51,071 bases of DNA from Candidatus Hebobacterum abditum (GTDB lineage Bacteria > Armatimonadota > Hebobacteria > Hebobacterales > Hebobacteraceae): assembly GCA_029821875.1 (NCBI GenBank), contig JALGXW010000041.1, positions 1 through 51,071 of the forward strand. Reading direction: 5' to 3'. Below the pieces are notes generated by a model that saw only the letters and a program-made list of their open reading frames with translations, was not told where the DNA came from and did no database searches. Position numbers and translations under genes: made by a program. Positions within the stretch are counted from its first letter, which is position 1. The number at the start of each line of letters is the position of its first letter. Positions 9,770-24,422 of this stretch are shown here, one piece after another.

Positions 9770-12700
9770 TCAGAGCACCAACCCAAACGCCCTCGCCACG
9801 TACACCGCCATCTGGTCGCGGGTGACGACGATTTCGGGGTGATAGAGGCCGTCCTCGTATCCTTGCACCACGCCGTGCTCGACGCAGTACTCGATATGGG
9901 TGTAGGCCCAGAAGTCGGAGGCCGCGTCGGGGAAGTTGCGCGGGTCGGCCGGGACGTAATCGGCCAGGCCGGCCTCTCCCTCAGGCGCGACCAGAGCGCG
10001 GGCCACATAGACGGCCATCTGGTCGCGGGTCACCTCGTACTCGGGGTGGTAGCTGCCGTCCTCATATCCCTCGACCACTCCGTTCTCCACACAGTACTCG
10101 ATGTGCGTGTAGGCCCAGTGATCGCTCGGCACGTCGGGGAAGTCCCGCGGGTCGGCTGGCACCCAGTCGGCGAGGACGGCCTCGCCGCTGGGCGCCTCCA
10201 GGCCGCGGGCGATGTAGACGGCCATCTGGTCGCGGGTAACCGTCCACTCCGGACGGTAGGTGCCATCCGGATAGCCCTGAACAATGTTCGCCTCGTGGCA
10301 GGCAGCGATCTCCTGGAATGCCCAGTGGTCAGGATAGGCGTCGGAGAACAGGATCACCGCCACGCTCCCCCCCACCCCAACCGAGGGGAGGCCGGTGCCC
10401 AGGCCGCTCGAGAGCACTACGCTGTCGAGGGAAACGGAACTGCCCCCAAGCGCACGGGCGTTGAAGTCCAGCTCCACCAACGACCCAGACCCCTCAGGAA
10501 GCTCATGCGCAGCGACGCTGTAAGCAAGCACTCGTATCCTGTTCTCGCTCACCTGATTGCTCTGCAGTGCCCACCCTCCGCCGGCCAGCAGACTTCCCGC
10601 TCGCACTGGATCGGCTAACTCCACCACCTCCGGTTCCCACGTGAGGTCGAACTGGAACCCTGCTACCCCAACCGCCTCGTCCAAGCTAACTTCGAGGGTG
10701 AAGGTGTCCTCTGGGTGCACTGTCGTCGAAGACGGTTGGACGGAAACGGTACGTGCCTCTTCACTGGTCAGGAGCAGCCCGGAGCCGGCCCACCCCACCT
10801 GCTGGAACGGCACGGCGCCAGGGCCGGAGAGGCCCAGGCTCTTCTGCACCACCAGCACAATGTCTTGGACATTCACCTCCTCGCTGCAGTTCATGTCCGC
10901 CGCCCATCCCTGGAACTCCAGCCCTGGAGGCTCCGGGATCTCCCGCTCCAAGGTGATGCTTACTGTCCTCAGCACGTCCAGCACATTCACCTCGCCATCG
11001 TCGGTGGGATCCCCCTTCACCCGCAGTGCGAAGGGATTGCTCTCCCCCGTGATCCCTGGCTCAGCTTGGTCGCTGACCACCAAGGTGCACGCTGCCAGAC
11101 CCTCGTCAGTGATGATACTCACAGAGCCTTCCCACACCCCACGGGAGAAGGTGACTGAGGCAGGCTCCAGCACGGCCCCACCAGAGCTGGTAGAAAGGTC
11201 AGCACTGTCCTGGTAGCTGGCAGCCAAAGCCCCGCCGGCATAGCGCGCCTCTATACGCGCTGAGACCGGCCGAGGACAGCTGGTGTCCGCACCCTGAGGA
11301 GAGGCTATGGGTTCAAAGGAGAAGTAGTCAGGCGGCACGATTATCCCCTCTATGTTCAACCTTCCGTCCGCGCTGCCCACGCTTCTGAGTGACTCCCCTG
11401 CACCGTCAGAAAGCACGACCTCTATTGGATGGAGAACATAGCTATCTCCGATGGTTGCACTAGCATCAACCAGGAAGTCCACCTCCAGGACAACTCCGCT
11501 GCCACTGGGTAACTCCTCACTGGCCAGACTGTAGGCGATGACCCGCCCCCTCTCACCTGGCACCAACTCCATCGAATCCACCGCCCATCCCATAGTAGGA
11601 CCTACTGCTCTTGCTGCGGTCAGATGCACCTCCAGAGCTCCCACTGGGGGGAGGTACTCCAGGTCGAATTGAATGCCGGCAATCCCGGCAGTCTGAGTGA
11701 GAGAGACAGGCACAGTGGCAGTGTCTGACGGGGAGGCCCCGACCTCTCCGACTTCCAGCGTTGCATCGGCCGGACCCCTGACAAAGATGTCGGTGCATGC
11801 GTTGGTGTCCCCGGGCACGAGGTTGGAGGCCCAGGAGGTGAACGCGACATACCGGCCGTCGGCGGTGAAGGTAGGATAATAGCTGCAATAATCGCCCTGC
11901 TCTCCGGCACTGCTGACGCTCACTTGCTCGGTCACCCCGGTCACGCGGTCGTGCACGAAGACGTCGGGGTGGTCGGCGCTGGTGCCCATGGGCACGAGGT
12001 TGGAGGCACAGGAGCAGAATCCCACGTAACGGCCGTCGGCACTGATGGCAGCGCCGAAGCTGTAGTTGTTGCCTTGCTCTCCGCCGCTGCTCACGCTCAC
12101 CAGCTCGGTCGTGCCCTCGACCCGGTCTCGTATGAAGACATCCCAGTAGCCGTTAGTGTCGTCCGGCACGAGATTGGTGGCCTCGGACCAGAAGACAACG
12201 TAGCGGCCGTCGGCGCTAACGGCAGACGTGGAGTCGCCGGTCCAGCTGTTCGCCTGCTCCCCGGCGCTGCTCACGCTCACCCGCTCGGTCGCCGCCGTCA
12301 CGCGGTCGTGCACAAAGACGTCCGGGCCCTCGTCGGTGGTGTCCCCGGGCACGAGGTTGGTGGCCCAGGAGCTGAACACGACGTACCGCCCGTCGGCGCT
12401 GATGGAGGGCCAGTAGCTGAAGCCGTTGCTCTGCTCCCCGGTGCTGCTCACGCTCACCCGCTCGGTTACCGCCGTCACCCGGTCGTGCACAAAGACATCC
12501 CGGAAGCCGTTGGTGTCCCCGGCCACGAGGTTGGTGGCGAAGGAGTGGAAGGTCACGTAGCGGCCGTCGCTGCTCGTGGCTGGCTCCTCGCTGACGCCGT
12601 TACTCTCCTCCCCGAGGCTGCTCACGCTGACCCGTTCCGTCACCGCGCTGATCCGGTCGTGGACGAAGACGTCCTGCAAGCCGTTCGTGTCCCCGGTTAC

Positions 12701-13075
12701 GAGGTTGTTGGCCCCGGACACGAACGCGACGTACCGGCCGTCGGCAGTGATGGCAGGGCTCCTGTACGGGGTCGAGTTCGCCTGCTCCCCGGCACTGCTG
12801 ACGCTCACTCGCTCAGTGGCCCCGGTAGACCGGTCGTGGACGAAGACGTCGAAGGAGGCATTAGTGTCTCCGGGCACGAGGTTGGAGGCCTCGGACGCGA
12901 ACGCGACGTACCGGCCGTCGGCGGAGATGGCGGGCCTGTCCGATGCGTCGCTGCCCTGCTCGCCCGCGCTGCTCACGCTGACGCGCACTGTGACATCGCT
13001 GGCGAGGGCGGGAGCGGCCGAGAGGCAGAGGATGAGCCAGAGAGCGAGACCGAGAACTACGCGACGCCGTGCCAT
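9770..13075 (-). CDS. Surface protein: propeller, two cohesin-like domains, dockerin, three SLH domains
   Basis: From the ATG at 13075 (AAGGGG seven bases upstream) the protein has 1101 residues. The order is: Sec signal (LALWLILCLSAAPALA); seven PD40-type repeats (about 30-430), each with ADGRYVAF and DVFVHDR; a cohesin-like domain (about 435-570, VPVSLTQTAGIAGIQFDLEY); a linker with an Ig-like region; a dockerin-like segment (about 690-755, two loops, DDGEVNVLDVLR and CSEEVNVQDIVL); a second cohesin-like domain (FTLEVSLDEAVGVAGFQFDL); and three SLH domains (last ~190 residues) that should bind cell-wall polymer. The seven DNA repeats (174-180 bases each, about 11.77-12.99 kb) are an internal tandem array. 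It would fit a scaffold-like surface protein. Confidence 0.85.
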   Translation of the reverse strand: MARRRVVLGLALWLILCLSAAPALASDVTVRVSVSSAGEQGSDASDRPAISADGRYVAFASEASNLVPGDTNASFDVFVHDRSTGATERVSVSSAGEQANSTPYRSPAITADGRYVAFVSGANNLVTGDTNGLQDVFVHDRISAVTERVSVSSLGEESNGVSEEPATSSDGRYVTFHSFATNLVAGDTNGFRDVFVHDRVTAVTERVSVSSTGEQSNGFSYWPSISADGRYVVFSSWATNLVPGDTTDEGPDVFVHDRVTAATERVSVSSAGEQANSWTGDSTSAVSADGRYVVFWSEATNLVPDDTNGYWDVFIRDRVEGTTELVSVSSGGEQGNNYSFGAAISADGRYVGFCSCASNLVPMGTSADHPDVFVHDRVTGVTEQVSVSSAGEQGDYCSYYPTFTADGRYVAFTSWASNLVPGDTNACTDIFVRGPADATLEVGEVGASPSDTATVPVSLTQTAGIAGIQFDLEYLPPVGALEVHLTAARAVGPTMGWAVDSMELVPGERGRVIAYSLASEELPSGSGVVLEVDFLVDASATIGDSYVLHPIEVVLSDGAGESLRSVGSADGRLNIEGIIVPPDYFSFEPIASPQGADTSCPRPVSARIEARYAGGALAASYQDSADLSTSSGGAVLEPASVTFSRGVWEGSVSIITDEGLAACTLVVSDQAEPGITGESNPFALRVKGDPTDDGEVNVLDVLRTVSITLEREIPEPPGLEFQGWAADMNCSEEVNVQDIVLVVQKSLGLSGPGAVPFQQVGWAGSGLLLTSEEARTVSVQPSSTTVHPEDTFTLEVSLDEAVGVAGFQFDLTWEPEVVELADPVRAGSLLAGGGWALQSNQVSENRIRVLAYSVAAHELPEGSGSLVELDFNARALGGSSVSLDSVVLSSGLGTGLPSVGVGGSVAVILFSDAYPDHWAFQEIAACHEANIVQGYPDGTYRPEWTVTRDQMAVYIARGLEAPSGEAVLADWVPADPRDFPDVPSDHWAYTHIEYCVENGVVEGYEDGSYHPEYEVTRDQMAVYVARALVAPEGEAGLADYVPADPRNFPDAASDFWAYTHIEYCVEHGVVQGYEDGLYHPEIVVTRDQMAVYVARAFGLVL
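11770..12990 (-). repeat. Tandem DNA repeats encoding seven propeller blades
   Basis: The propeller coding part consists of seven tandem units of 174-180 bases, each with a near-identical core that codes for FVHDR (starts near 11945, 12121, 12301, 12480, 12654 and 12832, plus a degenerate one). Units share long identical stretches, suggesting recent duplication or gene conversion. The protein domain is described in the CDS at 9770. Confidence 0.7.
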
Positions 13076-13320: not shown

Positions 13321-13512
13321 TCAGAGGGTCAGCCCAAACGCCCTCGCAACATACACCGCCATTTGATCGCGGGTAACGACCATCTCGGGGTGGCAGAGGC
13401 CGTCGAGGTAGCCTGCCACCACGCCGTTCTCCACACAGTACTCGCCGTGCTTGTAGGACCAGAAGTCGGAGGTTACGTTCCAGGAGGCCCGCGGGAGCGT
13501 GATCCTATGCAC
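13321..13512 (-). pseudogene. SLH-domain remnant
   Basis: A single 63-codon frame contains one SLH domain lacking its usual start: DFWSYKHGEYCVENGVVAGY followed by MVVTRDQMAVYVARAFGLTL. The N-terminal 12 residues (MHRITLPRASWN) do not look like SLH and there is no signal peptide, so this is a broken C-terminal end of a former surface protein rather than a gene. It abuts the stop of the metallophosphatase gene (13513). Similar remnants are at 18115 and 26108. The coding homology is clear; a function is unlikely. Confidence 0.75.
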
Positions 13513-18114: not shown

Positions 18115-18435
18115 TCAGAGCAACAACCCAAACGCCCTTGCCACGTACGCCGCCATCTGGTCGCGGGTGACGACGTAATCGGGGTGGTAGTGGCCGTCCT
18201 CGTATCCTTGCACCACACCGTTTTCCACACAGTACTCCACATGCTTGTAGGCCCAGAAGTCAGAGGCCACATCGGGGAAGTTGCGCGGGTCGGCCGGGAC
18301 GTAATCGGCGAGAGCCGCCTCGCCAGTCGGGGCGACCATGGAGCGGGCCACGTAGACGGCCATCTGATCGCGGGTGACGGACCAACCTGGACAGTAAGCT
18401 CCGTCGCCATGGCCCTCCACGATGTCCGCCACACA
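18115..18435 (-). pseudogene. SLH-domain remnant, about 1.7 domains
   Basis: The frame from 18435 to 18115 encodes an incomplete SLH domain (VEGHGDGAYCPGWSVTRDQM) followed by a complete one: FPDVASDFWAYKHVEYCVEN and VVTRDQMAAYVARAFGLLL. It lacks a signal peptide and the surrounding N-terminal residues (up to 18507) are not SLH-like. It is therefore the 3' piece of a lost surface-protein gene. The break lies at an intergenic sequence also found at 648-664. Confidence 0.75.
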
Positions 18436-22802: not shown

Positions 22803-24422
22803 CTAACTCACCAGCCCAAACGCCCTCGCAACATACACCGCCATCTGGTCGCGGGTGACAGCGTACTCCGGGTGATAGTAGCCGTCGAGGTAGCCGGCGA
22901 CGACGCCATTCTCGACACAGTACTCGACGTGCCTGTAGGACCAGAAGTCGGAGGCCACGTCGGGGAAGTTGCGCGGATCGGCCGGGATGTAATCGGCCAG
23001 GCCGGCCTCGCCCTCTGGCGCGACCAGAGAGCGGGCCACGTACACCGCCATCTGATCCCGGGTCACTTCGTACTCGGGATGGTAGGTGCCGTCACCATAG
23101 CCGGCGACGACGTTCTGAGAGACCGCGTACTCGATGTAGTCGAGGGCCCAGTGCGCCTCATCGACATCCGGGAAGCTCGGCGTGTCGGTGAACTCGGGGA
23201 CGTTCTCGTCGCCGTCGGCCACTGCCGGAGAGATGTAGACGGCCATCTGGTCCCTGTTGACTGCCCGGTCGGGCTGATAGGTAGCATCGCCGTAGCCGCT
23301 CACGATGCCAGCGCGCTGGCAGGCCTCGATCTCGAAGTAGGCCCAATGGCCGGAGGGAACATCCCAGAAGGTCGAGTAGCTTATGGCGCTCGGGTAAGCG
23401 TCGAAGCCGTCAGGCCGATTGGTGAGGTTGGCGGCGCTGCCATCGCCATTGCTGACAACGAAGATGTCGGCCTGTCCAGTGTCGTGGCTGTGCCGTGAGA
23501 AGTAGATGTTCGGGCCGGAGGGCGACCAGCAGGCGTCCTGGTCAGCGGTGCCAGTGCTTCCAATGACGGAATCCTGCGTCAGCGCGTAGCCCAGGTTCGG
23601 AAGGACCCCATCAGCGGGCGCCAGGTAGATATCCTCGTTGTGCGAACTCGGGGTGCCGCTCTGCATGTTGACGTATGCTATCTGGGCCGCGTCGGGAGAC
23701 CAGGCCGGATCTTGGCCCCCGGCCGCCCCGACGTGGCCAACGACCTCGTGAGTGTCACGGGTGTCTGGATCGGTGGCCCAGATGCTCCAGAGCCCCGGGT
23801 GGCCACGCTGCGCAGCATAGGTGATGTAGCCGTTCGCGCCCCAGCTAGGTGCAGCCTCACCCTCGAGGTCGTACTCGCGTGGATTGTAGTTAGTGAGCTT
23901 GGTGGGGATGCCGGGCGCGGCGAGATCGGAGACGTCGACGACACGAACCTCGAATGCGCCCGTAGGGCCATAGTCGGAGCAGTAAGCAATGCGGCTGCCG
24001 TCCGGTGACCAACACGGTGTTACTTCGTCGCACACGCACGTCGTCATCAGGTAGAGAGCGCGGGTGGGGAGGTCGATCACGAAGATGTCGAAGCTGCCAT
24101 CTACCCCCCAGCGGTCGGAGTGGAAGGCGATCTTCGTGCCGTCGGGCGACAATGCGGGAGCGCCATCGTAGCCGGCATGGGTCGTGATCTGCTCGAGGAT
24201 GGTGCCATCGGCGAGCATGGTCCAGATGTCCATGTTGCCGGAACGGTCGGACTGGAAAGCGATGAGGTCCGGCAGTGTCTGCGGAGGTCCGGGCGCCGTC
24301 CCGTCCGGTGTGTAGCCAACAAGGTTGGGCCGCGTCGTCTGCGCGCAGGCCACACTGGCAGCCAGCATCAGAACGATCAGCGCAGTGAGGTAAGGCGCGA
24401 TGTGGTCCGTGGTTGCCCGCAT
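22803..24422 (-). CDS. Secreted PD40-propeller protein with three SLH domains
   Basis: The 539-residue protein starts MRATTDHIAPYLTALIVLML, a Sec signal cleaved near ACA-Q. Six PD40-type repeats (about 45-355) follow, with DLIAFQSDRSGNMDIWTM, LSPDGTKIAFHSDRWG and WSPDGSRIAYCSDYG as examples. The last about 180 residues are three SLH domains, the first diverged (FWDVPSGHWAYFEIEACQ), ending in VTRDQMAVYVARAFGLVS. It should be tethered to the cell surface through SLH binding. The first 38 residues and at least 115 bases upstream are near-identical to those of the beta-barrel gene at 24905. AGGAG lies eight bases before the start. Confidence 0.85.
   Translation of the reverse strand: MRATTDHIAPYLTALIVLMLAASVACAQTTRPNLVGYTPDGTAPGPPQTLPDLIAFQSDRSGNMDIWTMLADGTILEQITTHAGYDGAPALSPDGTKIAFHSDRWGVDGSFDIFVIDLPTRALYLMTTCVCDEVTPCWSPDGSRIAYCSDYGPTGAFEVRVVDVSDLAAPGIPTKLTNYNPREYDLEGEAAPSWGANGYITYAAQRGHPGLWSIWATDPDTRDTHEVVGHVGAAGGQDPAWSPDAAQIAYVNMQSGTPSSHNEDIYLAPADGVLPNLGYALTQDSVIGSTGTADQDACWSPSGPNIYFSRHSHDTGQADIFVVSNGDGSAANLTNRPDGFDAYPSAISYSTFWDVPSGHWAYFEIEACQRAGIVSGYGDATYQPDRAVNRDQMAVYISPAVADGDENVPEFTDTPSFPDVDEAHWALDYIEYAVSQNVVAGYGDGTYHPEYEVTRDQMAVYVARSLVAPEGEAGLADYIPADPRNFPDVASDFWSYRHVEYCVENGVVAGYLDGYYHPEYAVTRDQMAVYVARAFGLVS

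Follow-up and report, generated by a model that had tools for sequence, protein, structure and literature searches.

A propeller protein with a cohesin-dockerin cassette and an SLH anchor from a probable Hebobacteria genome: a candidate self-contained fastener of the cell envelope

Cohesin-dockerin pairs are among the strongest protein fasteners known and have been studied almost exclusively within cellulosomes. ScaK of Acetivibrio cellulolyticus carries SLH domains, two cohesins and two dockerins on one chain and was presented in 2012 as the first protein so arranged (PMC3413522). ScaO1 of Clostridium alkalicellulosi has the order peptidase-PPC-Coh1-Doc1-Coh2-RhsA (PMC6780208). Additionally, ANME archaea encode chains that combine a single dockerin with as many as five cohesins, together with many separate dockerin proteins (PMC9012536).

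The protein analysed here joins two cohesins and one dockerin to a PD40 propeller and a C-terminal SLH triplet. Its gene lies in a window of 51,071 nucleotides, the whole stretch of DNA that was analysed, corresponding to contig C83 of a 4.3 Mb genome (95.1% complete, 3.7% contamination). The host is most likely a member of class Hebobacteria in the Armatimonadota. The paper that described this class, from marine sediments, reports few extracellular CAZymes, and cohesins, dockerins and SLH domains go unmentioned in its text (PMC10290634). The nearest genome, G001, matches the 'Candidatus Hebobacteria' isolate M3-38_Bin_440, and a further relative, G005, matches the Armatimonadetes isolate S016_27. 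With a probability of roughly 0.5, we read the product as an envelope protein outside any cellulosome, in which the dockerin binds a cohesin either on its own chain or on a neighbouring copy.

Domain architecture, anchor and cell location

Translation begins at an ATG at position 13075, with a ribosome-binding-like AAAAGGGG element just upstream. The sequence-only reading had the span of the gene right, and the strand is minus (Table 1). Its seven-bladed PD40 propeller and its three SLH domains also hold: seven repeats of 58-60 residues start at residues 31, 89, 148, 206, 265, 325 and 384, PD40 passes its Pfam cut-off, and the SLH domains score 124 bits in Pfam, above the cut-off, with a VTRDQMAVY motif conserved at residues 946, 1015 and 1084. 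It made no mention of a predicted beta-sandwich module of about 105 residues that separates cohesin 1 from the dockerin. The window also holds two orphan SLH remnants; the one listed in Table 1 keeps a 63-residue frame and is 82% identical in nucleotides to the region of the gene that encodes SLH 3.

Table 1. Features of the locus, with positions in the window and the evidence for each
Feature	Positions	Strand	Residues	Basis
Whole gene, exported protein of 1,101 aa	9770..13075	minus		ORF reading and Pfam
Signal peptide (MARRRVVLGLALWLILCLSAAPALA)	13001..13075	minus	1-25	predicted by eye from sequence
PD40 propeller, seven-bladed	11765..12985	minus	31-437	seven repeats; PF07676, E 2.3e-16
Cohesin 1 (Coh1)	11345..11761	minus	439-577	PF00963; phmmer to 6kg8; model against 6kgf
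X module, predicted beta-sandwich	11021..11329	minus	583-685	model; conservation in four cassettes
Dockerin, loops DPTDDGEVNVLD and DMNCSEEVNVQD	10823..11020	minus	686-751	family profile; invariant Asp; model
Flexible linker, 26 residues	10745..10822	minus	752-777	low pLDDT; sequence
Cohesin 2 (Coh2)	10355..10744	minus	778-907	PF00963, 36.7 bits; model
Three SLH domains	9773..10345	minus	911-1101	PF00395, E 1.7e-36
Orphan SLH remnant, between the phosphoesterase gene and this gene	13321..13512	minus		nucleotide identity

As an anchor the SLH triplet is generic, being common to about 70 proteins of the host genome, mostly at 44-83% identity; the genome yields at least 150 SLH matches. These triplets sit behind PD40, NHL, FG-GAP, PKD and beta-helix modules, and their genes often form tandem clusters. 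At least six PD40-SLH paralogues are present (on contigs C85, C87, C92, C10, C19 and C22), with propellers of 52-62% identity.

An Omp85 protein (E 1.7e-42) in the host genome makes an outer membrane, and hence a diderm cell, probable. Work on diderms shows SLH domains attaching to peptidoglycan below the outer membrane, and Armatimonadetes are among the groups from which SlpA/OmpM-type SLH proteins have been reported (PMC9388160). Given this setting, the protein may face the periplasm rather than the cell surface, and the surface location given in the sequence-only reading is not to be taken for granted. It is not built like a SlpA/OmpM connector, in which SLH domains precede a coiled coil and an outer-membrane barrel: the SLH domains here are C-terminal, no barrel or porin family scores above cut-off on the 1,101-residue chain, and a por_somb match spans only the SLH region.

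Cohesins, X module and dockerin

Both cohesins are genuine, as judged by sequence and by predicted structure. Pfam family PF00963 matches the chain in two stretches (E 3.2e-15, 57 bits, against a curated cut-off of 24.1 bits), and each cohesin singly exceeds that cut-off, with 36.7 bits for Coh2 and 26.7 bits for the other. A plain phmmer search with residues 439-577 against solved structures finds the cohesin CaCohA2 (6kg8/6kgc) at E 3e-5. The Pfam and phmmer evidence is independent of the structural models, of which the cassette model was built from an alignment of similarity-selected sequences and has a mean pLDDT of 81.7, with residues 470-510 of Coh1 at low pLDDT.

Fold comparison agrees. 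The Coh1 model superimposes on 6kgf with Z 17.5 and 2.0 A rmsd over 135 residues, and the Coh2 model does so with Z 18.1 and 1.9 A, also over 135. Coh2 further matches the Archaeoglobus structure 2xdh (Z 17.6, rmsd 1.7, 124 aligned) and, within the cassette model, 5nrk (Z 17.4, rmsd 2.1, 131 residues). The sequence-only reading had called two regions cohesin-like and named structural modelling as a check; both model as cohesins (Z about 17), and Pfam, phmmer and the model together rule out generic Ig-like domains in their place. The fold-comparison matches listed are all filled by cohesins, so that the X module is assigned from the model and the dockerin from profile and model.

The X module is all-beta in the model (pLDDT about 80-93) and, by prediction, folds as a beta-sandwich. 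It is conserved in four cassettes. Pfam returns no match for it, and a profile search brings up no significant relative of solved structure; its assignment to a known family was rejected on those grounds.

The dockerin needs more argument. The two-loop segment scores only 16.0 bits with PF00404 (Dockerin_1) on the chain and 21.7 bits in the genome search, below the curated cut-off of 22.9 bits. Nevertheless, a profile built from 12 homologues of the segment picks out solved dockerins (2ccl_B at 8.9e-11, 1ohz_B at 2.8e-10), and the homologue in genome G012 passes PF00404 with 28.5 bits. On these two lines of sequence evidence we take the dockerin as real despite its sub-cut-off score. The best EF-hand match of the same profile reaches only 0.005, so dockerins rank far ahead, which rules out an EF-hand or chance dockerin-like loops. 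Thus the proposal of a two-loop dockerin stands on the homologue profile and its invariant aspartates, and falls short on the Pfam score of the segment itself.

Both loops carry Asp at positions 1 and 12, as expected of a duplicated loop-helix motif, and the model shows three helices, like known dockerins. Three metal-loop Asp columns are the sole invariant columns among the 12 homologues, and a fourth loop Asp column is nearly invariant. Loop 1 (DPTDDGEVNVLD) departs from the canonical pattern at position 3, where it has Thr; loop 2 (DMNCSEEVNVQD) does so at positions 5 (Ser) and 6 (Glu). From their sequence, these substitutions could weaken the putative calcium binding.

Dockerin partners and the readings they allow

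A cassette profile of 453 positions, scanned against 291 Armatimonadota genomes, finds full cassettes in four of them. The five proteins concerned all belong to class Hebobacteria and keep the Coh-(X)-Doc-Coh order with differing partners: a PD40 or NHL propeller or a CHAP domain, with or without SLH. Besides the protein described here, they are a Coh-X-Doc-Coh-SLH chain in G001 (C342, contig JALGXV010000136.1, 8,082 bases), 55% identical over the cassette and cut inside Coh1 by the contig end; a second G001 protein (C88) with NHL and PD40 propellers and the cassette, which ends without SLH at a clean stop followed by a hairpin-like inverted repeat; a G005 protein (C262) with CHAP, Coh-Doc-Coh lacking X, and SLH; and a G012 protein with PD40 and the cassette, lacking SLH. 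A looser Coh-Doc-(other)-Coh order occurs in G064 and in lipoprotein-like chains of other Armatimonadota families (G271, G274, G287).

Genome-wide searches for dockerins, a check named in the sequence-only reading, found no dockerin-bearing host protein other than this one. Pfam searches to E 10 detect no further dockerin once a match at C64 is discounted; that candidate was rejected because it lies in an unrelated 449-residue protein, which we take to be DUF1015-like. The 12-member dockerin profile, also run to E 10, returns nothing in the host besides the protein's own segment, the next match being half a domain at E 0.2; the profile includes the cassette sequences themselves, and only its lack of extra matches is informative. 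Profile searches likewise find no dockerin outside the cassette proteins in G001, G005 and G012. At 95% completeness, the host assembly may miss a dockerin gene. The only Pfam cohesins in the host genome are the two of this protein.

These results bear on the role that had been suggested for the protein, namely a scaffold-like part in self-assembly or multi-component complexes, as in cellulosomes. The domains are as described and self-assembly is possible. The scaffold-like role is not supported: a cellulosome-like scaffold needs clients that carry dockerins, and none was found in the host or in any of the three relatives with the cassette. A cellulosome is rejected on the same ground.

The favoured reading, docking on a cohesin of the same or a neighbouring copy, can be put as follows. 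The C-terminal SLH triplet would fix the protein to peptidoglycan, and the N-terminal propeller would offer a binding surface. Between them, the Coh1-X-Doc-Coh2 cassette would act as a calcium-dependent self-fastener. In cis, the 26-residue linker would let the dockerin reach the Coh2 of its own chain, locking the stalk; in trans, the dockerin would dock on a cohesin of a neighbouring copy and cross-link copies along the wall. Binding, its calcium dependence, the choice between cis and trans and the part played by the propeller are conjectural, and the same Doc-Coh interface would serve between neighbouring copies. Because the genome shows no other dockerin, self-closure is the probable use of the fastener, as opposed to the gathering of enzymes. 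The stronger form of the proposal, a self-contained, client-free cohesin-dockerin system that clamps itself or polymerises along the diderm cell wall, falls somewhat short of even odds.

Structure prediction supports docking of the dockerin on Coh2, without amounting to proof. An AlphaFold construct of dockerin, linker and Coh2 gave a pTM of 0.83 although 21 linker residues (67-87 of the construct) are disordered (pLDDT < 50), and this exceeds the value of about 0.57-0.66 that a simple estimate gives for an unplaced dockerin and falls within the 0.78-0.89 or so estimated for a docked one. This pTM comes from a nine-row alignment and is read without PAE or coordinates, from a program trained on many cohesin-dockerin complexes; three of the five models have clearly lower pLDDT (72.8-78.2 versus 85.5), and the two best agree in pLDDT. 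The prediction places dockerin and Coh2 together confidently. The Coh-(X)-Doc-Coh order, kept in five proteins with otherwise differing domains, also speaks for the self-fastener. G001, moreover, has one cassette protein with SLH and another lacking it, which is what pairing between two chains would lead one to expect. Several observations count against self-fastening: one dockerin faces two cohesins, leaving one cohesin unaccounted for; the metal loops contain the non-canonical residues noted above; and the host genome has a third, divergent cohesin-like domain on another contig, C102.

An unlikely alternative is that the cohesin and dockerin folds bind nothing and serve only as stalk modules, beta-sandwiches and calcium-stiffened segments that hold the propeller off the wall. 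The imperfect metal loops would fit such a stalk, as would the exchange of stalk modules among paralogous SLH proteins: five of the PD40-SLH paralogues were scanned with Pfam and have no cohesin or dockerin, and one has a PKD domain where the cassette would be. X-like modules also occur in tandem in other Armatimonadota (G038, G138). Against a purely mechanical stalk stand the invariance of the three metal-loop Asp columns across 12 diverged sequences, the retention of cohesin and dockerin together in five of five Hebobacteria cassettes, and the confident joint placement of dockerin and Coh2 by AlphaFold.

We give still less credence to an anchoring scaffoldin whose cohesins recruit dockerin proteins of the same cell, encoded by missed genes, or of neighbouring cells, while its own dockerin plugs into another anchor. 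Cohesins and SLH domains on one exported chain, which the protein has, are a hallmark of such scaffoldins (PMC12484212), and other Armatimonadota families contain dozens of dockerins. The Coh1-X-Doc order, too, is like the C-terminal trimodule of CipA, and residues 6-323 of the model can be aligned with 3kcp and 4fl4, but at 13-14 A rmsd. What speaks against it is the lack of dockerin-bearing enzymes in the host and the three related genomes searched, the few extracellular CAZymes reported for the class, and the chain itself, on which a Pfam scan finds no CBM.

It is highly improbable that the dockerin instead docks on the divergent cohesin-like domain at C102 and so tethers that protein to the wall: the domain is C-terminal in a secreted 684-residue protein (G000:C102:86320-88374) that has a signal-like N-terminus and no SLH of its own, and it matches the cohesin profile at E 8.5e-6 (92% probability in hhalign), but a Pfam scan does not recognise it as a cohesin, and the relatives of this protein in several other Armatimonadota include some from genomes without a detected dockerin (G009, G011, G013, G014), so it does not depend on one.

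Comparison with known systems

The architecture is less unprecedented than first implied: clostridia have both SLH-Coh-Doc chains and Coh-Doc-Coh sandwiches. Like ScaK, the protein unites SLH domains, cohesins and a dockerin on a single polypeptide; ScaK, however, is part of a complete cellulosome system that has 41 cohesins, whereas this protein has one dockerin, a propeller and no detected clients. It shares with ScaO1 a dockerin placed between two cohesins on one chain, but ScaO1 has a peptidase and no SLH, and its host produces cellulosomes. The Coh9-X-DocII trimodule of CipA from Clostridium thermocellum (3kcp, 4fl4) has the same sequence of cohesin, beta-sandwich X and dockerin. The cohesin and dockerin of CipA differ in type and are not known to bind each other, and the X module described here has no detectable sequence relation to any solved one. 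Closer to home, the PD40-SLH paralogues of the host share the propeller repeat type and the SLH triplet and differ, in the five scanned, by having no cohesin or dockerin.

What is new is above all that no client dockerin was found in four genomes, together with the combination with a propeller and the lineage. Genomes in which a single kind of protein holds the whole pair would show the fastener at work with no enzymes to recruit, and they would provide a clean test system for its role in non-cellulolytic bacteria. Archaeal proteins offer a parallel for cohesins and dockerins outside plant-cell-wall degradation. Unlike this host, ANME archaea have many separate dockerin proteins, and the Archaeoglobus fulgidus cohesin 2xdh is among the best fold matches to the modules described here.

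SLH-anchored proteins of the host

Similar C-terminal SLH triplets are common to approximately 70 proteins across the host genome (G000), preceded by very different N-terminal modules and often encoded in tandem clusters. These proteins form a large, wall-anchored, module-swapping family. Within the window, two orphan SLH fragments share ~82-86% nucleotide identity with the SLH region of the gene for the 1,101-aa propeller-cohesin-dockerin protein, and are probably decayed or recombined remnants of paralogues. A second PD40-propeller and SLH protein carries neither cohesin nor dockerin.

Features in the window and in Armatimonadota genomes (C, contig; L, DNA stretch with internal coordinates)
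Feature	Location	Strand
Orphan SLH fragment	window 13321-13512	-
Orphan SLH fragment	window 18115-18435	-
PD40-SLH protein, 539 aa	window 22803-24422	-
SLH-triplet protein regions (examples)	G000 C22:14000-33500 and C87:1-75000 (L078-L080, L083)	
Secreted protein, 684 aa, C-terminal divergent cohesin-like domain	G000:C102:86320-88374 (= L241:2321-4375)	
Single-cohesin protein, 195-aa frame	L231:2346-2930 (G012:C1, around 2348866-2349237)	
Open frame, 2,197 aa, ~8 tandem cohesins	G064:C218 (L067)	

Cohesins and dockerins across Armatimonadota

The cohesin-like domain of the 684-aa secreted protein has no Pfam match. Relatives of this protein occur in several Armatimonadota, and dockerin searches in some of those genomes found none. 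The 195-aa frame of G012, a genome with one dockerin, consists of one transmembrane-like stretch and one cohesin. Elsewhere, G107, G102, G029, G120, G015 and genus g14 show the reverse imbalance, with dozens of dockerin matches per genome and few or no detected cohesins. In the 2,197-aa frame of G064 no dockerin was noticed; its product is scaffoldin-like and belongs to another Armatimonadota family.
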